In this document: in pieces, positions 1,749 to 24,826 of the stretch | Layout: every line of letters starts with the position of its first letter | Numbering within the stretch: position 1 is the stretch's first letter | DNA from: a virus | Reading direction: 5' to 3' (one strand) | IMG/VR virus record: IMGVR_UViG_3300017764_000093 | Span: 1-25,168 of that record | DNA length: 25,168 nucleotides | The notes under the pieces: model-generated | Databases searched by the model: none | What the model saw: only the letters and a program-made list of their open reading frames with translations | What the model was told of the DNA's origin: nothing | Program-made: the position numbers and the translations under genes

Positions 1749-1775
1749 TTAATTAATCTAATAAGGAGAGAAAAA

Positions 1776-3398
1776 ATGGCAAATTTTGATTTATCTAAAC
1801 TTATGGAAGGAAAGAACCCACAAGCAGTAATGCTTGAGCAAACTCGTGGTTTGAAAAACAAATGGGAACAAACTGGACTTCTAGAAGGTTTAAACGAAAG
1901 AGAACAATCTCAGATGAGTGTTCTTTTAGAAAACCAAGCAAAACAATTGCTTGATGAAGCAAACGCTACTTCAACTACTTCAGGAAATGAAGAGTGGAAT
2001 GGTGTAGCTTTACCATTGGTAAGAAGAATCTTTGGTGAAATCAGTGCGAAGAATTTCGTTTCTGTTCAACCAATGAACTTACCATCAGGTCTAATATTTT
2101 ACTTAGACTTTAAATACAATAACGCTCAGTTTGGTACAGGTTCACAACAACCTTATCAAAACTCATCTATCTTTGGTGGTGATGGTTCGGACTTAGGTTC
2201 AACTAACGTTGCTAAAAATGGTTTGTATGGAGCTGGTAGATTTGGCTATACGCTAAATGACCAATCAGTAGACGTAGCAAGTGGAAACACAACTGTTGCA
2301 ACTGCAAGTATGGTAGACCTTAATCATGACAGTAGATATACTGCTTCTTTAGCAGCTAATGAACTGATTAAGATTACTATTCCTCACGCTAATATTTCTT
2401 CAACTATCGACAAAGATGCGATTAAAGCATTTACTGTTGGTGATGAAGTTGGTGGAAACATCAAAGAAACAATTGGTGAGTTTGCACACGTAGCTGGAGC
2501 TAACGCTGTATTTATCGTATCTGCATCTTCTGATGCTGGATTAGATGCAGTATCAGTAAACTTCGCTAACGTACCTGCTGCTGAGAACAGAGGTGACTTT
2601 GAAGATAAGAGTCCTGTATTAAACACACCTGATTCAAGTGGAACTGTACTTGATATTCCTGAAATCGACCTAGAGTTGAAATCAGAGGCTATCGTTGCTA
2701 AGACTAGAAAGTTGAAGGCAGTATGGACTCCTGAACTTGCTCAAGACCTTAACGCTTACCATTCAATTGACGCTGAAGCTGAATTAACTTCTATGTTATC
2801 TGAGTACATCTCATTAGAGATTGACTTAGAAATCTTAGATATGTTAAAAGCTAACGCTTTAACTGAAGAAAAATGGTCAGTTACTATCGGACAAGAGTGG
2901 GATGGAACAGGTTGGACTGCACCAAATTCATCTGTAGCATATCAGAAAAATAACTGGTTCGCTACTTTAGGTGTTAAATTAAACAAAGTATCTAATAAGA
3001 TTCATGCATTGACTCTTAGAGGTGGTGCTAATTTCGTTGTGGCTAGTCCTGACGTATGTACTATCTTAGAATCAATTCCTGGTTTCTCTGTAAACGCTGG
3101 TAAAGACTCTATGGAGTTTGCAGCTGGTGTAAGTGCAGTTGGAGCATTATCTAACAGATACACAGTGTACAAAAACCCATATATGACTTCTAACGAAATC
3201 TTAATGGGCTTTAAAGGAAGTAATTTCCTTGAAAGTGGAGCAGTTTACGCACCATATGTACCGCTAATTATGACACCGTTGGTATATGACCCAGCGAACT
3301 TTACTCCTCGAAGAGGTGTAATGACTAGATACGCTAAGAAAATGGTAAGACCAGAATTCTATGGTAAAATCTATGTAAAAGACTTAAACGCTATTTAA
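1776..3398 (+). CDS. 23: Major capsid protein, gp23-like
   Basis: At 540 residues this is close to T4 gp23 (521). It forms the hexamers of the head shell (HK97 fold). Recognisable blocks are LPLVRRIFGEISAKNFVSVQ with PMNLPSG following (about 78-105), the segment with LKAVWTPELAQDLNAYHSID (about 313-333) and DAEAELTSMLSEYISLEID after it, and a C-terminal block containing TPLVYDPANFTPRRGVMTRY. The N-terminal propeptide should be removed by gp21: LDE|A after E61 fits the site and lies near T4's cut at residue 65; LLE|G after E37 is a second match. Mature length would be about 479. AAGGAGAG 6 nt before the ATG is one of the strongest Shine-Dalgarno sites here, fitting the most abundant virion protein. 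Only 27 nt separate it from gp22, and a strong terminator follows. Confidence 0.95.
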   Translation: MANFDLSKLMEGKNPQAVMLEQTRGLKNKWEQTGLLEGLNEREQSQMSVLLENQAKQLLDEANATSTTSGNEEWNGVALPLVRRIFGEISAKNFVSVQPMNLPSGLIFYLDFKYNNAQFGTGSQQPYQNSSIFGGDGSDLGSTNVAKNGLYGAGRFGYTLNDQSVDVASGNTTVATASMVDLNHDSRYTASLAANELIKITIPHANISSTIDKDAIKAFTVGDEVGGNIKETIGEFAHVAGANAVFIVSASSDAGLDAVSVNFANVPAAENRGDFEDKSPVLNTPDSSGTVLDIPEIDLELKSEAIVAKTRKLKAVWTPELAQDLNAYHSIDAEAELTSMLSEYISLEIDLEILDMLKANALTEEKWSVTIGQEWDGTGWTAPNSSVAYQKNNWFATLGVKLNKVSNKIHALTLRGGANFVVASPDVCTILESIPGFSVNAGKDSMEFAAGVSAVGALSNRYTVYKNPYMTSNEILMGFKGSNFLESGAVYAPYVPLIMTPLVYDPANFTPRRGVMTRYAKKMVRPEFYGKIYVKDLNAI

Positions 3399-3422
3399 TA
3401 ACGATTAAATCTTAAATAAATT

Positions 3423-3451
3423 AAGGGGGAACGAAAGTTTCCCCTTTTTTT
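3423..3451 (+). terminator. Strong rho-independent terminator after gp23
   Basis: A stem from 3423-3432 (AAGGGGGAAC) pairs with 3437-3446 (GTTTCCCCTT) across a GAAA tetraloop, with one G-T pair, and runs directly into a T tract to 3451. It ends the scaffold-capsid unit just before the next promoter box. Confidence 0.9.
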
Positions 3452-3482
3452 GTGTCTTTTTTTCCAATTCAAAATAAATTGA

Positions 3483-3490
3483 TATTTATA
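3483..3490 (+). promoter_or_regulatory. Candidate late promoter box TATTTATA (gp13 unit)
   Basis: TATTTATA lies 32 nt after the gp23 terminator and 29 nt before the gp13 start, a clean terminator-promoter pair. It fits the window's TAYTTATW motif. Two Shine-Dalgarno-like sites follow (TAGGAGG at 3491-3497 and AGGAG nearer the ATG). It would drive the run of coupled genes from 3520 onward. Confidence 0.5.
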
Positions 3491-3519
3491 TAGGAGGTAA
3501 ACTATTATAGGAGATTAAT

Positions 3520-4665
3520 ATGAGTAATTTTTGGACAGGTTCTGTTGAAAACGTAATATCGGGTTCAACACCATTTGGAATATATGATACGGATTCTCAG
3601 TTTCAAACTGATGGACCGAAAGTGGCATCTTGGTGTGCTAAAAGATTGGGGTATCCAATCGTTGATGTTGAACTAATTGATTTAAGTTTTTATGCTTGTT
3701 TTGAAGAATCGGTATCCGAATACTCAGCACAAGTAAATCAATTCCAAATAAAGAATAACCTTACCTCACTTCAAGGACAAGAAACAGGTTCTAACTATAC
3801 TCAGAAAAACATTAAAGGTAATCCTTTATCAAACCTAATAGATATATCACAAGCTTATGGAACATATGCTAATGTTGGTGGTAGAACTGATGTTAAAAAA
3901 GGTTCTATAACAGTTGGTAGTGGTTCACAAGATTATGATTTACAAGCTTTAGTTGGTGATGTATCTGAAAGTGGAAAACGATTAAACATTACTAAAGTAT
4001 ATTACGAAGCTGCTCCTGCGATGCAAAGATTCTATGACCCTTATTCTGTAAGTGGGAACGGAACTATGAATCTAATGAATGATATGGGTATGAGTAGATT
4101 ATCACCAGGTACTCAATTTATAATGATGCCTGTATATGAAGATTTACTAAGAGTACAGGGTATAGAATTTAATGACCAAATTAGAAAATCAGCTCATTCA
4201 TTTAATATTGTAAATAATAAATTAAAAATATTTCCATATCCAACGCATGAATATGAACTATGGTTTGAATACATTGTAAAAGAAGAATTTGATTCATCAT
4301 CTACATTAGTAACAGATGGTGTTATAGCAGATTATTCAAATACTGAATATGATTTTCATGTATATAGTAGGATAAATGATGTTGGTAAACAATGGATTAG
4401 AAAATACGCATTAGCATTGGCTAAGGAGTTACTTGGAGCAATTAGAGAAAAATATTCTTCAGTACCAATTCCTGGTTCAGAAGTAAATTTAGATGGAGCT
4501 GCTTTACGAGCTGAAGCACAGAGTGAAAAGGATACTCTTATAGAACAATTAAGAGATAATTTAAATGATATTTCGGATAAAGAACGATATACAAGTGAAG
4601 CAGACCAAGCGGATGCTCAACAAAGGGTAGTATCTAAAATACCATTAAACATTTATATAGGATAA
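3520..4665 (+). CDS. 13: Neck protein, gp13-like head completion protein
   Basis: This 381-residue protein aligns in blocks with T4 gp13 (309 residues), which joins gp14 to seal the DNA-filled head and receive the tail. The N-terminal block 'KRLGYPIVDVELIDLSFYAC' (about 41-60) mirrors T4's '[20 protein letters not shown]'. The central region has the FYDPY and gapped M..LMNDMG elements. The C-terminal block has WIRKYALALAKELLGAIREK and, about ten residues later, 'NLDGAALRAEAQSEKDTL', matching T4's 'KDYATALAKELNGQI' and 'TIDGQRLIEEARLEKEAL'. The extra length sits mostly after the first block (about 75-150). The gene starts after a promoter box and an AGGAG site, and gp14 follows 3 nt after its stop. 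Confidence 0.88.
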   Translation: MSNFWTGSVENVISGSTPFGIYDTDSQFQTDGPKVASWCAKRLGYPIVDVELIDLSFYACFEESVSEYSAQVNQFQIKNNLTSLQGQETGSNYTQKNIKGNPLSNLIDISQAYGTYANVGGRTDVKKGSITVGSGSQDYDLQALVGDVSESGKRLNITKVYYEAAPAMQRFYDPYSVSGNGTMNLMNDMGMSRLSPGTQFIMMPVYEDLLRVQGIEFNDQIRKSAHSFNIVNNKLKIFPYPTHEYELWFEYIVKEEFDSSSTLVTDGVIADYSNTEYDFHVYSRINDVGKQWIRKYALALAKELLGAIREKYSSVPIPGSEVNLDGAALRAEAQSEKDTLIEQLRDNLNDISDKERYTSEADQADAQQRVVSKIPLNIYIG

Positions 4666-4668
4666 ATT

Positions 4669-5124
4669 ATGGCAAGGTTTTTAACAGCAAATGATATATC
4701 TTTTTTTGAGAAGATATCATCTGAGTTAGTAGATGATGTAATTGAAACAACTATTCAGTTTTTTAAACTTTCAATTGGTGAAAGTAAAACAAATCTGTAT
4801 GGAGAATCATTGGCTAAATCTTACCACCAAGGAGTAAATATAAATGCAGTTATTGAAAGAGAAGATTCAGTTACAAACTATGAAGGATTTGGACCGGATA
4901 CGGCTCAAAATGTAGAATACAGATTTAACAGACACACTTTATCAACTAAAGATGTATATCCTGAAATTGGAGATATAATTTTCCATAATGAGGCATACTT
5001 TGAAATAAGTAATGTTAGAGAGGACCAAATGATTGGTGGAAGAAGTGGAAATAGATTCTCTATAATTTGTTCAACATTTATGAGTAGACGTTCTCAATTA
5101 AATTTAGAAACTAGAATAGCATAA
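4669..5124 (+). CDS. 14: Neck protein, gp14-like
   Basis: This 151-residue protein is much shorter than T4 gp14 (256) but keeps its core. 'LYGESLAKSYHQGVNINA' corresponds to T4's 'IFGEDLKNKFTKAWKFAA', then an 'E..D....Y.GFG' segment, and 'PEIGDIIFHNEAYFEISNV' corresponds to 'PKEGDLIYFPMDNSLFEIN'. gp14 binds gp13 and the portal to complete the neck. The N-terminal portion and the long C-terminal tail of T4 gp14 are absent, so this looks like a minimal form. Order supports the call: it sits exactly between gp13 and gp15. The start has a weak AGGA site inside the end of gp13, and its TAA overlaps the next ATG (TAATG), so it is probably translated by coupling. Confidence 0.75.
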   Translation: MARFLTANDISFFEKISSELVDDVIETTIQFFKLSIGESKTNLYGESLAKSYHQGVNINAVIEREDSVTNYEGFGPDTAQNVEYRFNRHTLSTKDVYPEIGDIIFHNEAYFEISNVREDQMIGGRSGNRFSIICSTFMSRRSQLNLETRIA

Positions 5125-6263
5125 TGGCAAACGACCCGTTAAAGAAACCAAAAAATAGAGCACAACAATTTTCTCATAAAAAAGAAAATAAAGTTGGTAT
5201 AACTTTATATGATATAGATTATGCTATGATGGAATATATGACTGATGTTGTAATTCCTGATGTTGAAGAAAATGGTACTAAAGTTAAAGTACCTCTTATA
5301 TACGGAAATCCAGAAAGATGGAAAGCTGCATCTAAAGATGGTTTTATAAGAGATGTTAGAGGGAAGATTCAAATACCATTAGTAATGTACAAAAGAAATA
5401 GTATAAGTAGAGATGATTCTTTTGCTAATACTATGAATAGAAATGTATCATATCCAACCTTAACAAAATATAATAAAAATCAGAAATACGATAAATTTTC
5501 TATTATGAATGGAGTTAATCCAAATAGAGAAGCATTTAATGTATCTATTCCTGATTATGTAACAATTTCATATGAAGTAATGATTTGGTCAAACTTTACA
5601 GAACATATGAATAAGATAGTAGAAGCTTTTCAATATGCTACAGATGAATATTGGGGTGATAGACAAAAATATAAATTTAGAGTAAGAATCGATTCATTTG
5701 ATAATCAAACTGAAGTAGGTGAAGGAACGGAACGTATAGTTAGAACTACATTTACTATGGCAGTTAACGCATACTTACTTCCAGCTGAGTTTGATAATAG
5801 ACCAACAACTGCAAAAGAATACACTCCAAAAAGAGTATCTTTTGGTATTGAAGCTGATTTAACGGGAGGTAATAATACTCTAAGTAAACAATCAAGCGTT
5901 AATCAGTATGGTGATGTTTTAGATTTCTTAGGAATGAGAGGTTCTGGGACAGGAAGTTTTGTAGATGCAGATACCTTTAGATTAGAAAATGTGGAAGTAC
6001 CAAAATTACCTCCAGCATTGGTTGATAGTTTCAATACAGATGAGTACTTTAGAATTTATATAAACGGATTATTGATTGATAATAAAAAATATACTTTCGC
6101 TGTGAGTAGTTCAGCTAATGCAGTGGAGTTTACAGTTACAACAGGTTCACTATCAGAAGGTGGAACATATCCTGATGATTTAATAGCAACAACTTCATCA
6201 CTTGGTTATATATTGACTGGGAGTGATGAGATTGGTATAACTGGAAAATATATAGAGTTATGA
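5124..6263 (+). CDS. 15: Tail sheath stabiliser/terminator, gp15-like, with added C-terminal module
   Basis: Residues 1 to about 240 correspond to T4 gp15 (272 residues), which caps the tail and connects it to the neck. Matching elements are KVPLIYGNPERWKA (T4 VPITYASKEHFMM), KIQIPLVMYKRN, YVTISYEVMIWSNFTEHMNK (T4 MIYELSIFTRYEDDMFQIVE) and a late TTFTMAVNAYLLPAE (T4 SLTFEVNGWMYPP). At 379 residues it is about 100 longer. The extra C-terminus ends in a beta-rich module with 'RIYINGLLIDNKKYTF' and 'LTGSDEIGITGKYI'. A similar module ends the next two genes. The start overlaps gp14's stop by one base, and the stop overlaps the next ATG by four (ATGA), so the cluster is coupled. The gp15 call is strong; the role of the extension is unknown. 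Confidence 0.82.
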   Translation: MANDPLKKPKNRAQQFSHKKENKVGITLYDIDYAMMEYMTDVVIPDVEENGTKVKVPLIYGNPERWKAASKDGFIRDVRGKIQIPLVMYKRNSISRDDSFANTMNRNVSYPTLTKYNKNQKYDKFSIMNGVNPNREAFNVSIPDYVTISYEVMIWSNFTEHMNKIVEAFQYATDEYWGDRQKYKFRVRIDSFDNQTEVGEGTERIVRTTFTMAVNAYLLPAEFDNRPTTAKEYTPKRVSFGIEADLTGGNNTLSKQSSVNQYGDVLDFLGMRGSGTGSFVDADTFRLENVEVPKLPPALVDSFNTDEYFRIYINGLLIDNKKYTFAVSSSANAVEFTVTTGSLSEGGTYPDDLIATTSSLGYILTGSDEIGITGKYIEL

Positions 6264-6592
6264 GTCTAAAACAAATTAAAGATATAATTTCACAACTAAA
6301 CGCTCCTAATGAAGTACAATTAGAAGAGGTCAATTTATCTACTAATAATTTATATTACATATGGAAAGCTAGTAATTGTAAACTAAGAAATTTTGATAAA
6401 AGATTTGAGGATTTGAGACAAGACCATTCTAAATTTGATGTATTTATAAATGGACAATTTATTATTGAAAACGATTACATATTTGAACAAAAAAATAATG
6501 ATTTTATAATTAATTTTAAAAAAGCAAATTTTCCCTATGTATTAGTTGGAAGTGATGTGATAACAATCGAAGGTGATATAGATAGAATATGA
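6260..6592 (+). CDS. Small virion-associated protein with ING-type beta module
   Basis: I do not recognise a named family for this 110-residue protein. The N-terminal half (1-55) is polar and probably helical. The C-terminal half has 'FDVFINGQFIIENDYIF' then 'FIINFKKANFPYVLVGSDVI' and TIEGDI, which resembles the end of the preceding gp15-like protein (INGxxI, a YxF strand, then GSDxIxIxG). This pattern recalls the 'YLNGxxLxxxxYTxxxxxIxF' beta module found in many phage fibre and tail proteins. Overlaps of four bases (ATGA) on both sides tie it to gp15 and the next gene. A tail or fibre-attachment accessory role is inferred from location. Confidence 0.7.
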   Translation: MSLKQIKDIISQLNAPNEVQLEEVNLSTNNLYYIWKASNCKLRNFDKRFEDLRQDHSKFDVFINGQFIIENDYIFEQKNNDFIINFKKANFPYVLVGSDVITIEGDIDRI

Positions 6593-6954
6593 GTAGAAAA
6601 AAACCAAATATTATAACACCTCACAATGATAAGGGGGCATTTAATGATTTAGTATTGAACGTTTTTAGCGATTCTTTTGTATCATCACATACACCAGATT
6701 CACTTAGTTTAAGTGGTACTTTATTCACATTAACACTATTAAATAAAAAATTTACATATGAAGAGGTTAAAGTTGATGTTTCTTCTGACTACGTTGATAT
6801 TTATTTACAAACAATAAAGCAAAAGGCATCCGCATATACAATTGTAGAGGATGGAAATAATATTAAGGTTACTTTTAATCAAGCTATATCTTTTGAACCG
6901 GGAGATATTGTAGCTGATGATTTTCAAATAAGAGGAAAAATAGTGAGTAGATAA
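6589..6954 (+). CDS. Small virion-associated protein, second ING-like module
   Basis: This 121-residue protein has no family I can name. Its N-terminal half is Ser/Leu-rich with beta character. From about residue 60 it has DVSSDYVDIYLQTIKQKASA, YTIVEDGNNIKVTFNQAI and EPGDIVADDFQIRGKIV, the same order as the ends of the two upstream proteins, except that the ING turn is replaced (YLQT). This is the typical 'strand, DYT strand, IxVTF strand, GDxVxxxG' layout. It starts inside the upstream stop (ATGA) and ends one base before the long fibre gene's ATG. It may link gp15 or the baseplate to the fibre encoded next, by position only. Confidence 0.7.
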   Translation: MSRKKPNIITPHNDKGAFNDLVLNVFSDSFVSSHTPDSLSLSGTLFTLTLLNKKFTYEEVKVDVSSDYVDIYLQTIKQKASAYTIVEDGNNIKVTFNQAISFEPGDIVADDFQIRGKIVSR

Positions 6955-6955
6955 T

Positions 6956-9900
6956 ATGGCAACACTAATTAAAAGTAAACAAATACAAGGAACAGTAACC
7001 GCATCCGCCGTTAGTGGAGATTTTCAAGTTAGTGGTTCATTTCAACATACTGGTTCATTAGAAGTTCAGGGTTCGGTAACGGCAAGTGGAGATATCCAAG
7101 CTACAACATTCAAAGGAGATGGTTCTTTACTATCAGGTGTAGAATCAACAGGTAGAGGAATATTCTCAGGTTCACAACAATTACCAACTGGATTAATAAG
7201 TTCATCAGAACAATTTCCAAGCGGTCTTGTTAGTGGTTCATCTCAACTATATACTGATTTAGATGCTAGATATGGTAATGAATTAGGTGATGGTTTAGTA
7301 AGTGGTTCTGTTTTAAGACCAGGTGGTGATTCCGTAATATCAAGTTCAGCTCAAGTAAATTATAATAGTTTACAAAATACACCAGAAGGCTTGGTAAGTG
7401 CTTCTATCCAAATATTGGGTGGAACTGATATAGTAAGTGGTTCTGTAATAAGAACTTTAAATGGAACTGATATAGTAAGTAGTTCAGCACAAATCACAGC
7501 ATTAGGATTTGTAAGTGAGAGTGGTGGAGGTGGAGGTTCAAATGAATCTTTAAATTCATTTACCGCATCTTACTATACCGATTCAGCATCATTTGATACA
7601 AGAATAGATGGTATTAGTGCAAGTGGTAGTGGTGCTAATTGGAACGTAAACCTATCAAATATTCCAAGTGGTTTAATTAGTGGTTCAGGACAAATTACTG
7701 ATTTAGGATTTGTTTCTGAAAGTGGAGATAGTACACCAGCAGGAACTATTAGTGGTTCAGAGCAAATAACAGATTTAGGATTTATTTCTTCATCAGACTC
7801 AACAACTTCATTAAATACATTTACCTCATCTATACAAACAGAGGTTGATGGAATAAGCGCAGCTACTTCATCTTATTTAACATCAAGTGGTTCAGTTGAT
7901 TATACTGATTTAACTTCAGTACCAAGTGGTATTTTAAGTAGTTCAGAACAAATTACAGATTTTGGATTTATATCGGAATCTGCAGAAAATACTTCATTAA
8001 ATGCATATACTGCATCAAATGATATTAATATTACAAATATACATTCTACAACTTCTTCATTAGAACAAAGAGTTGGAGAGATAGAATCAAACACAGGTTC
8101 ATATAGTGGAGGTGGTGGTGGAGATGTAACTCATCTTAATACATTTACTTCTTCCATACAAACAGAGGTTGATGGATTAAGTGCAGCAACTTCATCATAT
8201 ATTACTTCACTTCCAAGTGGATTATTAAGTGGTTCAAAAACAGAAATACCAAGTGGTACAGTAAGTAGTTCAGCACAAATTACAGCATTAGGATTTGTAT
8301 CAGCAAGTTCTTCAGTACCAGCTGGAACAATTAGTGGTTCTGGGCAGATAACATCTTTAGGATTTATATCATCCTCTGATTCAACAACATCTTTAAATTC
8401 ATATACATCATCTACAGATGTAAGAATAAATCAATTAGCATCCGCAACTGGTTCTTATATAAGTGGATTAGATAGTGGAATAGTTAGTGGAGCAGGTCAA
8501 ATTGGAGGGTTGGGATACATAAGTGGTTCTCAGGTTTCATCTTCAATTTCATTTGATGGAAATAGAGTAGTATCAAATACAGATTTACCAAGTGGAGTTT
8601 ATAATAACAACTTCGGAACAAGTGGCTCTATAATGGAGTTTGTAGAATCAGTATTTTTTCCAAATACTGCACCAGCAATAAACTCGGTATCATTTAGTAT
8701 TGATGAATACGAAGATACTAATTCAATTATCGGAACTGTATCAGCAACAGATGCAGAAGGACAAACAATAACATTCGCTACTCAAAGTGGATATTCCACA
8801 GACAAATTCGCAATACACCCATCAACAGGTGTTATAACCGCTAGAGCAAGAACAACATCATCACTAAATACAGATACATCTGTTTACGCTGGTGGAGCAC
8901 ATCCATTCTTAATAAAGGCAACAGATACATTTAGTGGTACAACAAACAAAACAATTCATATTAGAGTAACACCTAATACCGCACCTAAATTTAGAGAAGG
9001 TTCAGCGGGGGGAACTCAAATTACATCAGTAGCTTCAAGCTTCAATGAAAATTCATCTAATAACTCTTTGGTAAAAAGAGTTTACTTTACAGATGATGAA
9101 AGTGATTCAATAACAATTACATCAAGTTCTATTGATAACGAACATTTTGATATTACAATTTATTCAAACTACTTTGATATTAGACAAAATACAGGTTCAT
9201 TGGATTATGAAGTTCAATCATTATATACATTCTCAGTAACCGCATCTGATGAACATTTCTTATCAGCATCACAAGGTACAGTGGGGCAATCAATTTTACC
9301 TGTATCTGTAAGTGTAACTGATAATGTGCACCCTACTATTAATAACCAAACACTATCATCAATTAGTGAAAATAGTTCAAATGGGGCAACTGTAGCAACA
9401 ATATCAGCTACAGATAATGAAGGAGATACAATAACATTTAGTGATTTTACATTATATAAATTAGAATTAGATAACGCTAATGTTTCAAGTGCATCATATG
9501 GAGGTACATCACATACTGACCCAACAAACGATGCATTCCAATGTAGTGGAACTGGGCAAGTAACAAGAAAAAATGGTGTACATATAAATTCTGATTTAAT
9601 CAACGAATATCAATATACAGTGAGAATTAGAGATTCATATAATACAGCATCTAACGAAGCAGTAATTACAATTCCAATTACAGATGATACTGCACCAACA
9701 GTATCTGATAACTGGACTACTCCATATGTTATCGAATCAGCGGTAAGTGGTGCTAGTGTTTATGTTAGTTCAAATGGTAGAAGTGGTACAATAGCAGCAT
9801 TTTCAGCAAATCAATCAGTAACTTGGACTTTAAATAGTGGTAGTGGAGTATTTGATATAAATTCTTCAAATGGTAGATTATCCATAAAAACTAATTTAAG

Positions 9901-10873
9901 TGGTTCTACAACATCAAGTGGAGATTTACTAAGTGGAAGTTCAATAGCAACCAATACATTCGGTACAACTACGGAAACACCATTTACTACAAGTGTAGCA
10001 GCTAACCAAGCACCATCTATATCATTTACAAACCAATCAGCTAAGTTCGAAACAGAGTTAGCATTGAGTGGTGTAACTATGGTAAGTATGAGTGTAAGTG
10101 ATGATGAATCGGATACTCCATTTAGTGCATCACTAAGTGGTTCAGATTTACAATTAGTTTATTCAAACGCTAATTCATCATCAATTGGATTGCATTTAAC
10201 ACAAAATGCAACTGCTAGAGAATATTTTTATAGTGTAACAATTACAGACCAATTTGGTAAATCACAAACTTATAGTGATAGAAGTTTCACTGTAGCAACA
10301 TCAGCTGATTATGGTAAAACTTATGTATATCGTTCAGATTATGGTTCTGATAGTGGATTAAGTTCAAATTACTCAGCAGTGATGGGAATTAGTTCAACAG
10401 ATTCATCAACACCACCTGAAGTAACTGGATTCTCCGCAAATGATACTTCACCAATGAGATTGATAAGTTCATCTTTAGGAGATGCATCATTAAGTTTAGC
10501 AGGTGGAGGAACAGCTACGAGAGTAGCAATACTAAGTGGTTCAAACTTAGATACAATATTAAGTGCTAGTTCATTCTCAATGGGTGGAGCAGCAAATCAA
10601 TACATAGTAATAGCACCATCAGGTTCAGATATGATTGGAGTACCAACATCGATGACTGATTCATTCGGTGGAAGTACCGCTGGACAATATGTTATGGCTA
10701 TAAATGCAGATGGAGGTAGTTGGGGAGCAGAAAGTTCGATAGTACATTTATTAGATACATCGGGCTCGGTTAACGGATATGATAAACACTTTGTAATAGG
10801 TAGGAAAGGACACAACGCAGCAAATACAGTATTAATGAGAATAATTGCAAGTTCAGGTTCTTTACCATCGTAA
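6956..10873 (+). CDS. Long fibre/adhesin with SGS-Q repeats and cadherin-like domains
   Basis: This 1305-residue protein is modular. Residues 1-60 form a short beta start (MATLIKSKQIQGTVTASAVS). About 68-525 carries at least eight imperfect copies of 'xGxxSGSxQIxxLGFxS', with coiled-coil-like 'SLNTFTSSIQTEVDG' linkers. About 569-1120 holds four or five cadherin-like modules opening with NTAP or TAPTV and carrying acidic motifs such as SATDAEGQTITF, YFTDDESDSITI, SATDNEGDTITF and SVSDDESD, which in such domains bind calcium. About 1120-1305 is a Gly/Ser-rich tip with no family I recognise and no S74 chaperone. It has no signal peptide, one sign that it is a virion and not a bacterial surface protein. 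It directly follows the gp15 cluster. Receptor binding is inferred. Confidence 0.8.
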   Translation: MATLIKSKQIQGTVTASAVSGDFQVSGSFQHTGSLEVQGSVTASGDIQATTFKGDGSLLSGVESTGRGIFSGSQQLPTGLISSSEQFPSGLVSGSSQLYTDLDARYGNELGDGLVSGSVLRPGGDSVISSSAQVNYNSLQNTPEGLVSASIQILGGTDIVSGSVIRTLNGTDIVSSSAQITALGFVSESGGGGGSNESLNSFTASYYTDSASFDTRIDGISASGSGANWNVNLSNIPSGLISGSGQITDLGFVSESGDSTPAGTISGSEQITDLGFISSSDSTTSLNTFTSSIQTEVDGISAATSSYLTSSGSVDYTDLTSVPSGILSSSEQITDFGFISESAENTSLNAYTASNDINITNIHSTTSSLEQRVGEIESNTGSYSGGGGGDVTHLNTFTSSIQTEVDGLSAATSSYITSLPSGLLSGSKTEIPSGTVSSSAQITALGFVSASSSVPAGTISGSGQITSLGFISSSDSTTSLNSYTSSTDVRINQLASATGSYISGLDSGIVSGAGQIGGLGYISGSQVSSSISFDGNRVVSNTDLPSGVYNNNFGTSGSIMEFVESVFFPNTAPAINSVSFSIDEYEDTNSIIGTVSATDAEGQTITFATQSGYSTDKFAIHPSTGVITARARTTSSLNTDTSVYAGGAHPFLIKATDTFSGTTNKTIHIRVTPNTAPKFREGSAGGTQITSVASSFNENSSNNSLVKRVYFTDDESDSITITSSSIDNEHFDITIYSNYFDIRQNTGSLDYEVQSLYTFSVTASDEHFLSASQGTVGQSILPVSVSVTDNVHPTINNQTLSSISENSSNGATVATISATDNEGDTITFSDFTLYKLELDNANVSSASYGGTSHTDPTNDAFQCSGTGQVTRKNGVHINSDLINEYQYTVRIRDSYNTASNEAVITIPITDDTAPTVSDNWTTPYVIESAVSGASVYVSSNGRSGTIAAFSANQSVTWTLNSGSGVFDINSSNGRLSIKTNLSGSTTSSGDLLSGSSIATNTFGTTTETPFTTSVAANQAPSISFTNQSAKFETELALSGVTMVSMSVSDDESDTPFSASLSGSDLQLVYSNANSSSIGLHLTQNATAREYFYSVTITDQFGKSQTYSDRSFTVATSADYGKTYVYRSDYGSDSGLSSNYSAVMGISSTDSSTPPEVTGFSANDTSPMRLISSSLGDASLSLAGGGTATRVAILSGSNLDTILSASSFSMGGAANQYIVIAPSGSDMIGVPTSMTDSFGGSTAGQYVMAINADGGSWGAESSIVHLLDTSGSVNGYDKHFVIGRKGHNAANTVLMRIIASSGSLPS
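7157..8530 (+). repeat. SGS-Q repeat array inside the long fibre
   Basis: At least eight imperfect copies of the unit 'P(S/A)G.(I/V/L)S(G/S)S.QI..LGF(V/I)S.S' are spaced irregularly by 15-70 residues. Examples are PSGLISGSGQITDLGFVS, PAGTISGSEQITDLGFIS and PSGILSSSEQITDFGFIS. At DNA level the octamer AGTGGTTC recurs. Related units occur singly in the 693-residue fibre (near 11934) and the 1310-residue fibre (near 17233), so the unit is shared between fibre genes. Confidence 0.8.
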
Positions 10874-17750: not shown

Positions 17751-19187
17751 ATGGCACAGACAATAAAGTTAAAACGTTCATCAACTGAGGGTAAAATCCC
17801 CACTACTTCACAACTTGCTTTAGGGGAAATTGCTATCAACACATTTGATGGTAGAATATTCTTTGAAAAGAACGATGGCTCTGCTACTATAGAACAAATT
17901 CTAACTACCGATTCCATAACAACGGGTTCGATTACAATTACAGGAAGTTTACAAACCGATAATATAACAATTGATAACGCTACAATTAGTAGTGATTTAG
18001 ATATAACTTTAGATTCAGCTGGAGATATCATTTTCGATGCAGATGCTACAGATATCATATTAAAAGATGGTGGAACTGAATTTGGTAGATTTAAAAGAGA
18101 TAGTTCTAATTTTGTAATAAAATCTGCTACCAGTGATAAAGATATTATATTCAAAGGAGTTGATAATAGTTCTACTATATCAGCTCTTACATTAAATATG
18201 TCTGAAGCAGGTGCTGCTACTTTTCATGGTGGTATAGCAGAAGCTGGAACTATTAGTGAGGGAACGTGGAACGCAGATGTAATAGCATCAGCTTACTTAG
18301 ATGCAGATACGGCACATTTGAGTGGTACACAAACATTTAGTGGAGCAAAAACATTTAGTGCTGGTATTACAGATGCAGGAACAATAGCTGCTGGTACTTG
18401 GAATGGTACTGCAATCGCATCGGCTTACTTAGATTCAGATACAGCACACCTAAGTGGAACACAAACATTTAGTGGAGCTAAAACATTTAGTAGTCCCGTA
18501 TCAGTAACCAATGGTACACACATAGGTCTTACTATTGTAGGTTCAGGTACTAGCCATACACAAGGTGCTATTGCTCTTAAAAGTTCAACTTCAGATACTC
18601 CAGAGGCTAGAGGTCAGGGTGTATTTATGTTTAATGAGGGTGATGATTCTACTTTTTATATGGGAACTCAATACCAAGATGCTGATACATGGCAAATTGG
18701 TAGAGCTACGGGAACATCTATAAACACCGAAGCTGCAGAATCAGGTAATGCGTTTTTAAAAATTAGTAATGCAGGTGTAGTGACTGTTGATGCATCAACT
18801 CAATCAACAAGTAAAACGACTGGTGCACTTCTAGTAGATGGTGGTGTTGGTATCGCAAAAACACTTAATGTTGGTGAAGATGTTGTAGCATACGCTTCTT
18901 CAGATGAGAGATATAAGGATTTAATCACACCAATTGAGAATCCAAATGAAAAAATTAAATTACTAAGTGGTAACACATTCGTATGGAATGATAAGCACGA
19001 AGTATTCAAAGGTAAAAAAGATATCGGTGTAATTGCACAAGAGGTAGAAAAAGTTTTACCAGAGATTGTAGAAACAAGAGATAACGGATACAAAGCCGTA
19101 AAATACGAAAAGATAGTAGCTCTACTTATAGAATCAAATAAAGAACTTCTTAAAAGAGTAGAAGAGTTAGAATCAAAAATCAAATAA
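17751..19187 (+). CDS. Short tail fibre with second S74 self-cleaving chaperone
   Basis: The N-terminus MAQTIKLKRSSTEGKIPTTS, then QLALGEIAINTFDGRIFFEK, is the widespread phage fibre attachment motif. The shaft has 'DITLDSAGDIIFDADATDI', two tandem 44-residue repeats (about 165-252, 'GTWNxxxIASAYLDxDTAHL' plus SGTQTFSGAKTFS), and a glycine-rich segment before the chaperone. The last 95 residues are S74: SSDERYKDLI, IGVIAQEVEKVLPEIVETRD, a VKYEKIVALLIE helix and a coiled coil. The dyad is S384/K389, so the mature fibre would be about 383 residues. It starts 14 nt after the longer S74 fibre, without a clear Shine-Dalgarno. The two chaperones share the pattern but differ widely in sequence, arguing for two separate fibres. 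Confidence 0.87.
   Translation: MAQTIKLKRSSTEGKIPTTSQLALGEIAINTFDGRIFFEKNDGSATIEQILTTDSITTGSITITGSLQTDNITIDNATISSDLDITLDSAGDIIFDADATDIILKDGGTEFGRFKRDSSNFVIKSATSDKDIIFKGVDNSSTISALTLNMSEAGAATFHGGIAEAGTISEGTWNADVIASAYLDADTAHLSGTQTFSGAKTFSAGITDAGTIAAGTWNGTAIASAYLDSDTAHLSGTQTFSGAKTFSSPVSVTNGTHIGLTIVGSGTSHTQGAIALKSSTSDTPEARGQGVFMFNEGDDSTFYMGTQYQDADTWQIGRATGTSINTEAAESGNAFLKISNAGVVTVDASTQSTSKTTGALLVDGGVGIAKTLNVGEDVVAYASSDERYKDLITPIENPNEKIKLLSGNTFVWNDKHEVFKGKKDIGVIAQEVEKVLPEIVETRDNGYKAVKYEKIVALLIESNKELLKRVEELESKIK
18243..18500 (+). repeat. Two tandem 44-residue repeats in the 478-residue fibre
   Basis: Units of 132 nt start at 18243 and 18375. Both encode 'AGTIxxGTWNxxxIASAYLD' followed by 'xDTAHLSGTQTFSGAKTFS'. 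ACACAAACATTTAGTGGAGC is identical in both copies. Confidence 0.88.
18900..19184 (+). other. S74 chaperone domain of the 478-residue fibre
   Basis: Catalytic S384 (TCA at 18900) and K389 lie five apart in S-D-E-R-Y-K; GVIAQEVE and the VKYEKIVALLIE helix follow. Predicted self-cleavage is just before S384. Confidence 0.87.
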
Positions 19188-20183
19188 ATGTACGATGTTT
19201 ATTACACAACTGGTGGTGGTCCTTGGGTCAACGCTGGAACTGATATGTGGGTAAATGATTTCTTAGAAAATATAGTACCACATTTAAAAGTAAGACCAGT
19301 TTTACTGATTCATAGAACAAAACCCAACGGATTTGAGGATTTTGAATTTCCAATAGAAACTCATTGGCAGGGAGATAATGTTGGTGAATTTGAAAGAATT
19401 TGTGATGGAGCTAGAAGAATCAATATATTACATGGACATTATACTCCAATGAAAGCTATAGTAAACAATAAAAATAAAATACATTCTAATGTATTACATA
19501 ACTCAGTAGACCATATTTTGAAATCACAAGTAGGTACAGATGCAGGAGTAGGTTGGCATCCTTGGTTAGATTCAAAGTGGGAAAAAGACGTAAACGATTG
19601 GGCAACTCATTCTATATGGGTTGGTTTATTTGATATTTTAATTAAAAATAAGAAAATACCTAATTATTATGAATTTAAACATAATTTACCTTTGAGTAAA
19701 TCAAATGGATTAGGATATGCTGCTAGATGTGAGGGAAGAAAAAACCCACATTACTTAGAAAATCTAAAATGTTTTATTTTTACTAATTCTTTTGAGTTTA
19801 ACGCTTTTTGGAAAAATGCAGTTAAGTTAAATTATGATAAAGCAAGGATTTATCATTACTATGGTAACTTTAAAGATAAGTTTTATAATATGAATTGGGG
19901 AATATCCCATTCAGCATTCACTTCAGAACCATTTGGTTATGGAATATTTGAATCAGTAGATAGAGGAAAACTACCAATTTTACATGAAACTTGGTGTAAA
20001 GATTTCGAATATCCATACAGAGTTTCAAATAAAAAACAATTTAATGATATTTATAATCACATTGTAAGTGAATCATATGAGGTAAAGTGTAATTGGTTTA
20101 AAAAACTAAAAAACTATATGGTTACTAATTATTCAGATAAAAAACAATGGATTAATTCATTATTAGATATTTATAACATATAG
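19188..20183 (+). CDS. GT-B fold glycosyltransferase (GT4-like) in the fibre cluster
   Basis: This 331-residue protein has a glycine-rich N-terminal loop (TTGGGPWVNAGTDMW, residues 7-21), an 'INILHGHYTP' segment (79-88), and the C-terminal motif SEPFGYGIFESVDRGKLPI. E247 and E255 form the E-x7-E pattern that binds the nucleotide-sugar donor in GT4-type retaining glycosyltransferases. It lacks a signal peptide or membrane helix, so it acts in the cytoplasm. The length is short for the family (usually 350-400) and the rest is divergent. It begins immediately after the S74 fibre stop (TAAATG) and ends 9 nt before the Hint protein, so it is cotranscribed with virion genes. Likely acceptors are the phage's own fibres or host surface sugars; donor and acceptor are not readable. 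Confidence 0.72.
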   Translation: MYDVYYTTGGGPWVNAGTDMWVNDFLENIVPHLKVRPVLLIHRTKPNGFEDFEFPIETHWQGDNVGEFERICDGARRINILHGHYTPMKAIVNNKNKIHSNVLHNSVDHILKSQVGTDAGVGWHPWLDSKWEKDVNDWATHSIWVGLFDILIKNKKIPNYYEFKHNLPLSKSNGLGYAARCEGRKNPHYLENLKCFIFTNSFEFNAFWKNAVKLNYDKARIYHYYGNFKDKFYNMNWGISHSAFTSEPFGYGIFESVDRGKLPILHETWCKDFEYPYRVSNKKQFNDIYNHIVSESYEVKCNWFKKLKNYMVTNYSDKKQWINSLLDIYNI

Positions 20184-20192
20184 GGATATAAT

Positions 20193-21509
20193 ATGGCAAC
20201 AGTTAATAGTGGAAATACACTAAGTTTAAATAATTTAGCAGCAGCTACAGATGAAAGTACCAAATCTTTAGGTAGTTGTGCTGGTAGTACGGCAACTCCC
20301 ATTTCAATGTCAGCTTTTGCTATTGATTCAGTTGGTTCACTTAGTGGATTTACATATGTTGTTGAAAGTACTGCTGAAGATTATGTATTAGGATTTACTA
20401 ATCCTGGTGGTAGATTTGAAAAAATATCCCAACAAAAGAAAAACTTTGATTGGTCCGTAACAAAAAATGGTGGAGGAACTTCACTATTTTCATCAGCATC
20501 TTATTCACAAGCAGCTGCTGGTAGTGGTTCAATAACACTAACTGCTGGAGATATGGCAAATTCAGGAGTATTAATAGGAGCTACTGCTCATACATTAGGA
20601 GTAACATTTGCAGATGGATATAATGACCATATTGATGTAGCAGGTGGATATAACGTTGAAATGACAAAAACAATATATTCGGTAGATTCTTATGATGGTA
20701 ACGCAGCTGCACTTTGTTTAGTATCTGATTCACCTATAATGAAAGCTGATGGAACAATTGTAGAAGTTGGTGATTTAAGTGCTGGTGATGTGTTGAGTGG
20801 ATACTCACTAAGTGGATTATCGGAAGATTCTGATAGTAACTTCTTAGAGTGGGAATCTGATTCATTGGGAGAAACTCAAAAAAATGTAACTGTAGTGAAT
20901 GTAACATATTCATTCAGTAATAAGATATATAATATAAATGATGGTGAAATAAAGGGTACATCAGAACACCCAATGTTAGTAAAAGATACATCATCTGGAA
21001 AATATAAATTTAAAGAATTAGTAAGATTAGAAATTGGTGATAAACTCATAAAAGAAGTAGATTCGGTATTAACCGAAGTTGAAATAGTATCAATTATAAT
21101 TGAAGCAGCTGATGTAGAAATAGTTTCTTTAGATGTAGAAGCACAAGATACATATTTAGTAAATGGATATGTAACTCACAATAAAGGAGGAAATTCACAT
21201 ACAGATTTAGCTGCACCTGATGTACCAACTGATATAGCATGGAACAATAGTACTAAAACATTAAGTTGGACAGCTCCATCTTCAGTAGGTACTACTGGAA
21301 TTACAGCATATAATTGGGAGATAAATACCAATAGTGGATTTGGGGCAGCTGGACAGGTAGCAGTTCAAAATCAATGGAGTACTACTACAATAGCTGTACC
21401 ATCTATAGTTACTTTAAATAATGGAACTGAGTATTATTTTAGAGTACAAGCAATTGACCAAGGGTTGCCGGGAACATACGGAACTTTAACATTTACACCA
21501 GGCGCATAA
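20193..21509 (+). CDS. Virion-type protein with internal Hint (intein-like) domain and FN3
   Basis: The 438 residues fall in three parts. Residues 1-174 are a Gly/Ser/Ala-rich beta region of no family I recognise. Residues 175-330 are a Hint domain: Cys175 opens block A (CLVSDSPIMKADGTIVEVGD), block B is GTSEHPMLVK with T256-x-x-H259, and the end is VSLDVEAQDTYLVNGYVTHN with H329-N330. No homing endonuclease is present. Residues 331-338 are KGGNSHTD, and 343-436 form a fibronectin type III domain (PDVPTDIAWNNSTKTLSWTA, YYFRVQAID). The residue after N330 is lysine, not Cys/Ser/Thr, so standard splicing is not expected; self-cleavage at Cys175 or after N330 is possible. It follows the glycosyltransferase by 9 nt. 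The Hint call is strong; the processing outcome is inference. Confidence 0.8.
   Translation: MATVNSGNTLSLNNLAAATDESTKSLGSCAGSTATPISMSAFAIDSVGSLSGFTYVVESTAEDYVLGFTNPGGRFEKISQQKKNFDWSVTKNGGGTSLFSSASYSQAAAGSGSITLTAGDMANSGVLIGATAHTLGVTFADGYNDHIDVAGGYNVEMTKTIYSVDSYDGNAAALCLVSDSPIMKADGTIVEVGDLSAGDVLSGYSLSGLSEDSDSNFLEWESDSLGETQKNVTVVNVTYSFSNKIYNINDGEIKGTSEHPMLVKDTSSGKYKFKELVRLEIGDKLIKEVDSVLTEVEIVSIIIEAADVEIVSLDVEAQDTYLVNGYVTHNKGGNSHTDLAAPDVPTDIAWNNSTKTLSWTAPSSVGTTGITAYNWEINTNSGFGAAGQVAVQNQWSTTTIAVPSIVTLNNGTEYYFRVQAIDQGLPGTYGTLTFTPGA
20715..21182 (+). other. Hint domain (bacterial-intein-like), Cys175 to Asn330
   Basis: These 156 residues carry nucleophile C175, block B T256/H259, and C-terminal H329-N330. 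All residues needed for the N-to-S shift and Asn cyclisation are present, but the +1 nucleophile is replaced by K331. The nearest downstream Ser and Thr are S335 and T337. Confidence 0.8.
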
Positions 21510-21932: not shown

Positions 21933-24284
21933 ATGGCAGAAAAAATCGTATCACCGGGAGTATTTACAAGAGAGAATGACTTATCATTCATTTCCCAAGG
22001 AATTGGTGAAATTGGTGCAGTTGTTATAGGACCTTTCCATAAAGGACCTGCATATGTACCAACCATCGTAAATACCCAATCAGAATTTGAAGAAATATTC
22101 GGTACACCTGATGGAACTTACTATACAGGATATACCGTACAAAATTATTTAAGAGAAGCAGGAACAGTAACAATTGTGAAAACTGGTCACGTTGGAGGAT
22201 ATACTCAAGTAGACCCAATCGGAATTGTAGTATCTGGTTCAAAACATGCTGGAGGAGTATCAGGAAGTGCTGGAGCTAGACAATTAGTAGGAGTTCTACA
22301 TGCAACTGAAAATGGAACAGAAGATACTGGATTCCCTGTAGCAAGTAACTCAATTGAGTGTCAAGTCTCATCATCAACATTTAATATAAGTGGTTCAGAA
22401 GTAGGAACATCTGTATCAGCATCTATCATACCATCATCTGGTAGTGATATTTCTGATGTATTTGGTGAATCACCACTAGGAGGTAAAAATGTATATGCAT
22501 ACAAATACTTCGAAAAAGCAGCAACAGACCAAGCAGGGTTCTTCGCAGCTAGTGGTTCATCTGTAGAGTTCGTTTCTTTAGCAGACCAAGATTTTGCATT
22601 TAATGAGCAAAGAGCAACAACACCATATATTAAATCACAACTTATATCTGGAGATAGACACAATCTATTTAGATTTCACACTTTAGGACATGGTACTGAT
22701 ACGAACCAAGCCGTAAAGATATCTATCTTTAATGTAAAAGCAGCTGGTTCAACAGCAGCTACAGATTACGCAACATTCTCAATTGCAGTAAGAAAGTTTA
22801 GTGATACAGATAAAAGAAAGAATGTATTAGAAACATTCAATAATCTAAATTTAGACCCAGCTTCACCTAATTACATTAAGAAAGTAATCGGTGATAGAGT
22901 TATCTCTATAGATGCAAATGGGAAAATGACTGAAACAGGTGATTATGTGAACAACTCTAAACACATCTATGTAGAATGTGTTGAAGAAGGTTCATTCCCA
23001 ATATCAGCAGCACCATTTGGACACGCTGAGTATCTAAATCCTGTAGCTGTAAGTGGAGATGCAACTGGTTCAGAAAATGATATAGTTCCAGCGGCAACAT
23101 TCAGAACAAACTCTGATAGTAATACTGCTAGTTCTAAATTGAACTTTGCTGGTATCGATGTAGAAACAGCAACAACTAAAATAGATAACAACAATTACTT
23201 AGCACCGATTCCAAATAACTCTGGAACAGGTTCAAACTCAATATTCGCATTTGATTCAACACTTTCTTATGAAATGACTGGTTCAGCTGCAGTAGATATC
23301 GCTAAGAGACAATTTACTATCGGATTCCAAAGTGGATTTGATGGTTGTTCACCAACGACTAGAAAACAATTAGGTTCAAATATTTCATCTGGAAATTCGC
23401 AAGGATATGATTTATCATCTTCTACTGCTAGTGGTTCAATTGCATATGTTAAAGCAATTAACGCAATTTCTAACCCTGATGATTTTGATATCAACTTAGT
23501 ATCTACACCAGGTGTTGTACGAAGATTACACTCTTATGTATTTGGTAAAGTAGTAGATATGGTAGAAGCTAGACAAGATGCATTCTTTATTGGAGATGTA
23601 ACTTCAGTAAACGATACTATATCACAAGCTACAACACAAGCTGAAGCAGTTGATTCAAACTACGCTGGTGTTTATTACCCTTGGGTTAAAACAATTGATG
23701 TTAATACAAATAAATTAACAGCAGTTCCACCATCAGTATTGATGCCAGGTATATTCGCAGCTAACGATAGGTTGGCAGCTGAATGGTTCGCACCTGCTGG
23801 TTTAAATAGAGGTGGTATCGTAGGAGCAGTTTCTGTATTAAACAGATTAACGCACGCTGAAAGAGATACACTTTATGAAAGTAAAGTAAATCCAATCGCT
23901 TCATTCCCTGGCGAAGGTATTGTAGCATTTGGACAAAAGACATTGCAAGATAAAGCATCCGCTTTAGATAGAATCAATGTTAGAAGATTATTAATCAAAG
24001 TAAAAAAGTTTGTGGCTAGTACATCTCGTTACTTAGTATTTGAACAAAACACCGCTCAAACTCGTAACAGATTTATTAACACTGTACAACCTTATTTAGA
24101 AGGTGTACAACAAAGACAAGGGTTATACGCATTCAAAGTAGTAATGGACGAAAGTAATAATACTCCTGATGTTATCGATAGAAATATCTTAGCAGGACAA
24201 ATATTCTTACAACCTACGAAAACGGCTGAATTCATAGTAATAGACTTTAACATATTACCAACTGGAGCATCGTTCTCGGCATAA
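21933..24284 (+). CDS. 18: Contractile tail sheath protein, gp18-like
   Basis: At 783 residues this is longer than T4 gp18 (659). The N-terminus has the sheath signature VSPGVFTRENDLSFISQGIG, then GAVVIGPFHKGPAYVP and a SEFEEIFG element, matching T4's 'LSPGIELKE...GKFQWGPAF...FGQP'. The C-terminal third carries the conserved domain: NPIASFPGEGIVAFGQKTLQ, ASALDRINVRRLLIKVKKF, an 'FEQNTAQTRNRF' element and a final FIVIDFNILPTGASF. The extra length lies in the middle (about 90-480), rich in SGS-like sequence, probably surface-exposed loops. The sheath contracts to drive the tube through the envelope. AAAGGAG 8 nt before the ATG is a strong ribosome site, as expected for a protein made in many copies per virion. 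Confidence 0.95.
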   Translation: MAEKIVSPGVFTRENDLSFISQGIGEIGAVVIGPFHKGPAYVPTIVNTQSEFEEIFGTPDGTYYTGYTVQNYLREAGTVTIVKTGHVGGYTQVDPIGIVVSGSKHAGGVSGSAGARQLVGVLHATENGTEDTGFPVASNSIECQVSSSTFNISGSEVGTSVSASIIPSSGSDISDVFGESPLGGKNVYAYKYFEKAATDQAGFFAASGSSVEFVSLADQDFAFNEQRATTPYIKSQLISGDRHNLFRFHTLGHGTDTNQAVKISIFNVKAAGSTAATDYATFSIAVRKFSDTDKRKNVLETFNNLNLDPASPNYIKKVIGDRVISIDANGKMTETGDYVNNSKHIYVECVEEGSFPISAAPFGHAEYLNPVAVSGDATGSENDIVPAATFRTNSDSNTASSKLNFAGIDVETATTKIDNNNYLAPIPNNSGTGSNSIFAFDSTLSYEMTGSAAVDIAKRQFTIGFQSGFDGCSPTTRKQLGSNISSGNSQGYDLSSSTASGSIAYVKAINAISNPDDFDINLVSTPGVVRRLHSYVFGKVVDMVEARQDAFFIGDVTSVNDTISQATTQAEAVDSNYAGVYYPWVKTIDVNTNKLTAVPPSVLMPGIFAANDRLAAEWFAPAGLNRGGIVGAVSVLNRLTHAERDTLYESKVNPIASFPGEGIVAFGQKTLQDKASALDRINVRRLLIKVKKFVASTSRYLVFEQNTAQTRNRFINTVQPYLEGVQQRQGLYAFKVVMDESNNTPDVIDRNILAGQIFLQPTKTAEFIVIDFNILPTGASFSA

Positions 24285-24337: not shown

Positions 24338-24826
24338 ATGGCAGAAGTATTAGAATTCAACGAAATGTTTTATACCAACTTTGAACCGAAGATGAAAAAT
24401 AGGTTCATCATGAACATTGATGGTATAGATTCATATTTAATAAAAACGGCTAACAGACCTACGATTTCATTCGAACCCGTAACTTTAGACCATATCAATG
24501 TAAAAAGAAAGCTTAAAGGAAAAGGTGAGTGGCAAGATGTAGAGATTACTATGTATGACCCAATCGTACCTTCAGGAGCACAACAAGTAATGGAATGGGT
24601 GAGAACATCACATGAATCCCTTACTGGTAGAGATGGATACGCAGATTTCTATAAGAAAGATGTAAACTTCTTTATGTTAGGACCTGTAGGTGATAAGATT
24701 GAACAATGGACTCTTAAAGGTGCATTTATTACATCAGCAGCATTCAATGACTTAGATTGGGCTTCTAATGACCCAGCTGAGATTACATTAACGTTATCTT
24801 ACGATTACGCAATATTAGAATTCTAA
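24338..24826 (+). CDS. 19: Tail tube protein, gp19-like
   Basis: At 162 residues it is practically the same length as T4 gp19 (163). It forms the inner tail tube as stacked hexameric rings around the DNA channel. Tube-family blocks are NRFIMNIDGIDSYLIKTANR, 'INVKRKLKGKGEWQDVEITM' followed by YDPIVPSGAQQVMEW, and a C-terminal 'DLDWASNDPAEITLTLSYDY'. Position directly after gp18 is as in T4. The gene has a strong AAAGGAG site 8 nt before the ATG and is followed by a terminator, so its messages end cleanly. Confidence 0.95.
   Translation: MAEVLEFNEMFYTNFEPKMKNRFIMNIDGIDSYLIKTANRPTISFEPVTLDHINVKRKLKGKGEWQDVEITMYDPIVPSGAQQVMEWVRTSHESLTGRDGYADFYKKDVNFFMLGPVGDKIEQWTLKGAFITSAAFNDLDWASNDPAEITLTLSYDYAILEF

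Follow-up and report, generated by a model that had tools for sequence, protein, structure and literature searches.

Hint domains that process themselves occur in inteins, Hedgehog proteins, bacterial toxins and ciliate ubiquitin loci. The reading frame considered here raises the question of what such a domain does in a tail gene of a virus when the residue that follows it, at the +1 position of the splicing nucleophile, is a lysine. It lies in a 25,168-nucleotide stretch of viral DNA (IMG/VR record IMGVR_UViG_3300017764_000093), the whole of which is referred to below as the window. A first-pass annotation, made from the letters of this DNA, had described a 156-residue intein-like domain with Cys175, Thr256/His259 and His329-Asn330, placed between a beta-rich N-terminal part of unknown type and a fibronectin III (FN3) domain in a phage fibre locus. 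The residue numbers and the domain length are borne out, and the Lys that had been read after Asn330 is confirmed as Lys331, a non-canonical +1 residue (Table 1).

Table 1. Positions of the Hint gene, its parts and its neighbours in the window, and of three viral proteins used for comparison
Feature	Position	Strand	Remarks
Peptidase_S74 tail fibre protein (C-terminal chaperone domain)	17751..19187	+	Upstream of Hint gene
331-aa protein	19188..20183	+	Directly upstream of Hint gene; 57/57 checkable loci
Whole ORF	20193..21509	+	438 aa; order N-part, Hint, Lys331, linker, FN3
N-part (N-extein position), residues 1-174	20193..20714	+	
Hint domain, residues 175-330	20715..21182	+	156 aa
Cys175, block A, Hint residue 1	20715..20717	+	51/51 invariant
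Block B T256-S-E-H259	20958..20969	+	Thr 48/51, His 51/51
Block G His329-Asn330	21177..21182	+	Each 51/51 invariant
Lys331, +1 residue	21183..21185	+	51/51 invariant; codons AAA 46, AAG 5
Linker GGNSHTDLAAPDV	21186..21224	+	pLDDT <50 at residues 333-338
FN3-like domain (C-extein position), residues about 345-435	21225..21497	+	
Tail sheath	21933..24284	+	Downstream in 94/94 checkable loci
Tail tube	24338..24826	+	Downstream in 94/94 checkable loci
L231, C-terminal HNK-stop Hint on a lambda gpI-like tail assembly protein	2276-3457	+	phrog_32 E 1.6e-37
L240, collagen-repeat tail fibre	1638-5348	-	1237 aa; Hint-like region at start, before collagen part
L246, collagen-repeat tail fibre	5182-9774	+	1531 aa; Hint-like region at start, before collagen part

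The Hint signal is weak from a single sequence and clear once relatives are added. Searched with the window protein, Pfam returns PT-HINT at E 7e-4 and 20.2 bits, below the cut-off of 27.7, and NCBIfam returns intein_Nterm at E 0.02, with the best stretch beginning exactly at residue 175. Among 51 family members, PT-HINT is matched in 22 and Intein_splicing in 21. A profile of 34 Hint domains searched against PDB sequences finds BIL2 (6tmm/6y75) at E 2e-5 and the bacterial intein-like (BIL) domain of C. thermocellum (2lwy) at E 3e-4, and the intein-like assignment is thus upheld by profile search. Structure prediction agrees with it. For an AlphaFold model built from 51 sequences (pLDDT 84), Foldseek places 6y75, the Tetrahymena BIL2 domain, at the top (E 1.5e-9), and VIA-align of model residues 170-335 likewise ranks 6y75 first (Z 19.8, rmsd 1.8 Å over 141 residues, 22% identity), followed by inteins, the C. 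thermocellum BIL (2lwy, Z 17.9) and Hedgehog at Z 15-18.7. These VIA-align matches all concern the Hint region. By modelled fold, together with Cys1, the block B His and the C-terminal His-Asn, residues 175-330 are assigned to the Hint superfamily; at this length there is no room for a homing endonuclease insert. Two low-confidence stretches flank the domain in the model, residues 167-172 before it and 333-338 after it, and both are probably flexible.

The closest Pfam model to the window Hint is PT-HINT of polymorphic toxins, from which the window protein differs in its tail locus and in carrying FN3 in place of a toxin at the C-terminal end; in the few bacterial PT-HINT cases read, the +1 residue is variable (A, G, Q). 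With the score under the Pfam cut-off and the toxin absent, a toxin-type PT-HINT was rejected. A defence protein was set aside as well, the PADLOC search giving no match.

The flanking parts also agree with their first description. Residues 46-164 of the N-part consist mostly of beta strands in the AlphaFold model, and a PDB sequence search with the N-part found no significant relative. The C-part matches PF00041 at E 4e-4 over residues 351-424, which is under the Pfam cut-off in the window protein, and at E 7e-8 in the best relative. Within the predicted beta-rich domain of the N-part, D141, N144, H146 and K159 are invariant; K159 and an Asn or Asp could be a candidate pair for an internal isopeptide bond.

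The tail setting proposed for the gene is supported on both sides by the Peptidase_S74 fibre gene upstream and the sheath and tube genes downstream. Two fibre genes with S74-type C-termini precede the Hint gene, and a 93-aa protein follows it before the sheath and then the tube. Because sheath and tube lie downstream at every checkable locus, the Hint gene is a fixed tail-locus gene and not a mobile intein, and from this position its product would be expected in the virion. The 331-aa protein immediately upstream is better conserved than the Hint protein; it has no Pfam, PHROG or PDB match and is probably a GT-B-type glycosyltransferase. Elsewhere in the structural gene region of the window, a 1305-aa ORF (6956-10873) has no PHROG match.

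IMG/VR was scanned for the family with three queries, namely the full-length protein, its Hint and its N-part; the scan patterns excluded the HN junction, the seeds being other parts of the protein. Two scans gave the best 80 of 202 relatives and the best 80 of 224 relatives. At least 99 distinct complete family proteins were obtained, all of which carry N-part, Hint and C-part, and none of the 99 complete ORFs from these best matches is a Hint-free copy. A mobile intein was rejected on this count, among the matches listed, and on the lack of an endonuclease and of a canonical +1 residue. A canonical class 1 intein was rejected because Cys, Ser or Thr at +1 is absent and Lys takes the position throughout. 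No full-length match to the family was found in 50,697 phage records, and no confirmed relative in the genome_contigs search. Three family-carrying contigs measure 214-289 kb, so that jumbo phages make up at least some of the viruses concerned. The carriers of this tail gene are large aquatic phages.

Conservation was assessed on 51 representatives at less than 90% identity, with a median pairwise identity of 52% and a minimum of 34%. C175, H259, D283, D319, H329, N330 and K331 are invariant in all 51, as is the residue at -1, Leu174. Lys331 is also constant across 100 ORFs, and the only other invariant lysine among the representatives is K159. Synonymous codons differ between members at H259, N330 and K331, which argues that the invariance is not mere recent copying. 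Of the three parts, the Hint shows the tightest amino-acid constraint, with a median pN of 0.299 against 0.357 for the N-part and 0.397 for the C-part; pN is quoted rather than dN/dS, as synonymous sites are highly diverged and dN/dS values are rough.

Lysine at +1 recurs outside the family. Viral contigs were scanned for the motif D-x-Y-x-V-x-G-x-phi-V-H-N with the +1 position left free, and the 18 Hint-like clusters so obtained have Lys at +1 in 12 cases, Cys in two, Phe, Ala and Val in one each, and an end at the Asn in one. This sample is shaped by the search motif, its clusters are related and the HNK families may share ancestry; the binomial P of 2e-14 for 12 Lys in 18 clusters presumes an independence that related families violate, and the count itself is the evidence. 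The two clusters with Cys are read as true inteins. In 11 of the 12 Lys clusters the lysine is the final residue of the protein (HNK-stop), and the HNK Hints sit on differing N-parts, one of them a lambda gpI-like tail assembly protein. The HNK-stop Hints (L228, L229, L231, L236, L254 and others) resemble the window Hint in Cys1, block B His and HNK; their N-parts are of tail or unknown type, and they differ from the window protein in having no C-extein.

One relative, L252, has an N-part distantly related to that of the window (E 1.6e-28) and ends in HNKGTNDAP-stop without FN3. The lysine can therefore persist where FN3 is absent, and release of FN3, which the first-pass annotation had put forward, does not hold as a general purpose of the domain. 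A supported branch of the Hint tree separates the HNK-stop group from the window family, residues other than Lys stand at +1 in between, and Lys at +1 costs six changes, at least three of which are forced by well-supported branches. The +1 Lys is either ancestral with occasional loss or was gained more than once. In the collagen-repeat fibres of L240 and L246, the Hint-like regions, which have no N-extein, are without Cys1 and the block B His and have kept His-Asn; which Hint residues are retained seems to depend on the exteins that a protein has. In Alexandravirus tail proteins (AD1_108, pEaSNUABM32_00111; phrog_38766), a phage tail Hint is detectable by sequence as in the window, whereas the N-part is collagen-like, the Hint is C-terminal, the +1 residue is Thr and FN3 is missing.

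The comparison with BILs can now be refined. A-type BILs are defined by a His-Asn end and a +1 residue other than Cys, Ser or Thr (PMC7765530, PMC5874633), and the window Hint has this junction in H329-N330-K331. A-type BILs such as that of C. thermocellum (2lwy) also share with it the Hint fold, Cys1 and the block B His. On the other hand, they are described from variable stretches of bacterial proteins that are not conserved, whereas the window Hint belongs to a conserved tail gene at a fixed place and its +1 residue is always Lys. The earlier likening to a BIL without a splicing nucleophile thus stands as to the type of Hint and fails in treating the lysine as a mere loss, given its invariance in the 51 representatives and its recurrence in viral Hints. 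From the same two observations, Lys331 appears to be functional in the domain and not simply a lost nucleophile. Furthermore, HNK-stop proteins keep Asn and Lys without any C-extein, which makes it more likely that the Asn-Lys pair serves the fate of the N-part than that it frees a C-part.

In Hint chemistry, Cys1 and the block B His lead to a thioester, and the His-Asn pair leads to cyclisation of the Asn. In the window protein, Cys175, aided by H259, would convert its link to Leu174 into a thioester, and Asn330, aided by H329, would cyclise and break the bond to Lys331. The Hint would be excised with Lys331 participating in the reaction, and the outcome would be either N-part and FN3 joined via the Lys331 amine or two separate pieces. 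We consider it fairly probable that this conserved phage tail-locus protein undergoes self-processing by means of a BIL-type Hint domain in which Lys331 stands in for the +1 nucleophile. Removal of the Hint by itself is likewise somewhat favoured, joining via Lys331 being about as likely as cutting only.

For joining, we tentatively propose that the side-chain amine of the +1 Lys attacks the thioester and Asn330 cyclises, leaving an isopeptide between N-part and FN3 with the alpha-amine of Lys331 free. A lysine acceptor would have a reported precedent in BIL2 of the Tetrahymena BUBL1 locus (6y75, 6tmm), the best structural and best profile match of the window Hint. For BIL2, a zinc-activated, non-canonical splicing that yields a lysine isopeptide is reported, and its acceptor lysine is described as part of the ubiquitin-like domain that comes next and not stated to be at +1 (PMC8616854). 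BIL2 is eukaryotic and lies between ubiquitin-like domains, unlike the window Hint with its phage tail-locus protein and invariant +1 Lys, and no ubiquitin-like family is found among the Pfam matches of the 51 members. As far as residue conservation indicates, the invariant +1 Lys would be compatible with a BUBL-type lysine isopeptide product. Against any chemistry of Lys331, the residue could be kept for structure, for example for a salt bridge.

An ordinary A-type BIL that only cuts is a possible account, to be taken seriously if short of likely. Cyclisation of Asn330 would release FN3 with an N-terminal Lys, hydrolysis of the thioester would release the N-part, and Lys331 would be chemically idle. 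Published BILs without a nucleophilic +1 residue mostly cut, the A-type at the C-terminus (PMC7664689, PMC5874633, PMC7765530); BILs with changed +1 residues are described as mostly cutting only (PMC7664689), and for A-type BILs splicing by an alternative route is also reported (PMC5874633). The +1 residue does vary (T, A, R, F, P) in other Hints examined, yet a passive residue needs neither the invariance of K331 in the family nor the retention of Lys as the last residue of a protein.

A Hedgehog-like transfer is rather doubtful, although the Hog structure 1at0 matches the model at Z 17.8, a match that concerns the Hint only, and most viral HNK-type Hints form the C-terminal domain, as in Hedgehog. 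The thioester of the N-part would then be passed to an outside amine, for instance on an adjacent tail subunit or on a molecule of the host surface, so that the tail is cross-linked and FN3 remains on the Hint. A Hog-type reaction needs no C-terminal His-Asn, however, and H329-N330 is invariant; nor is an adduct-recognition region recognised, the Hint being followed by an FN3-like domain in the window protein and by a region that recognises the adduct or sterol in Hedgehog.

It is less probable still that the Hint serves as a folded structural spacer, currently inactive. The family Hint is never seen without its flanks among the matches listed, as a spacer would have it, but its catalytic residues are all invariant while much of the remainder is variable, and it is the part under the strongest constraint. 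A mobile intein in decay, its +1 nucleophile already lost, is very improbable even though jumbo phages carry true inteins, terminases being an example (PMC7412058), since among the matches listed every complete ORF has the Hint, no endonuclease insert is present and the +1 residue is invariant rather than drifting.

In the open literature, with most primary BIL papers covered via reviews, we found no description of a Hint that is a fixed element of a phage tail gene and is followed by an unvarying +1 Lys. The window family has an A-type BIL junction, and its fixed tail gene and invariant +1 Lys differ from the published setting. To return to the reading of a self-processing tail protein, the unvarying lysine suggests that a tail protein of a virus is cut or cross-linked in a manner not yet characterised. 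If the Hint cuts, these phages would have a maturation step built into tail assembly. If joining via lysine is true, viruses would possess an ATP-independent isopeptide-forming module, useful in protein chemistry, and if the lysine is the nucleophile, viral HNK Hints would be a class in which lysine takes the part of Cys, Ser or Thr in the maturation or cross-linking of virus tail proteins.

A cellular origin was rejected on the genome_contigs result, and a search of 296 genomes of one bacterial phylum gave two matches, a strong one with Thr at +1 (L299) and a weak one with Lys at +1. The strong match (L299, G250:C46, ORF from about 12486) is a tail-collar-like protein encoded on a bacterial genome contig; it has FN3-like repeats and, at its C-terminus, a Hint close to that of the window (E 4.6e-25), and it ends in HNTKVDPLE-stop. 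The bacterium shares its phylum with the Aquimarina record L269, and the locus looks like a prophage or a tail-like element. Finally, two jumbo-size viral contigs that also carry the window family (L300, G003:C1:19500-25500; L301, G004:C1:78500-84500) encode a protein of 765-791 aa with three tandem Hint-like domains, which are linked by short joining stretches and end in HNK-stop.
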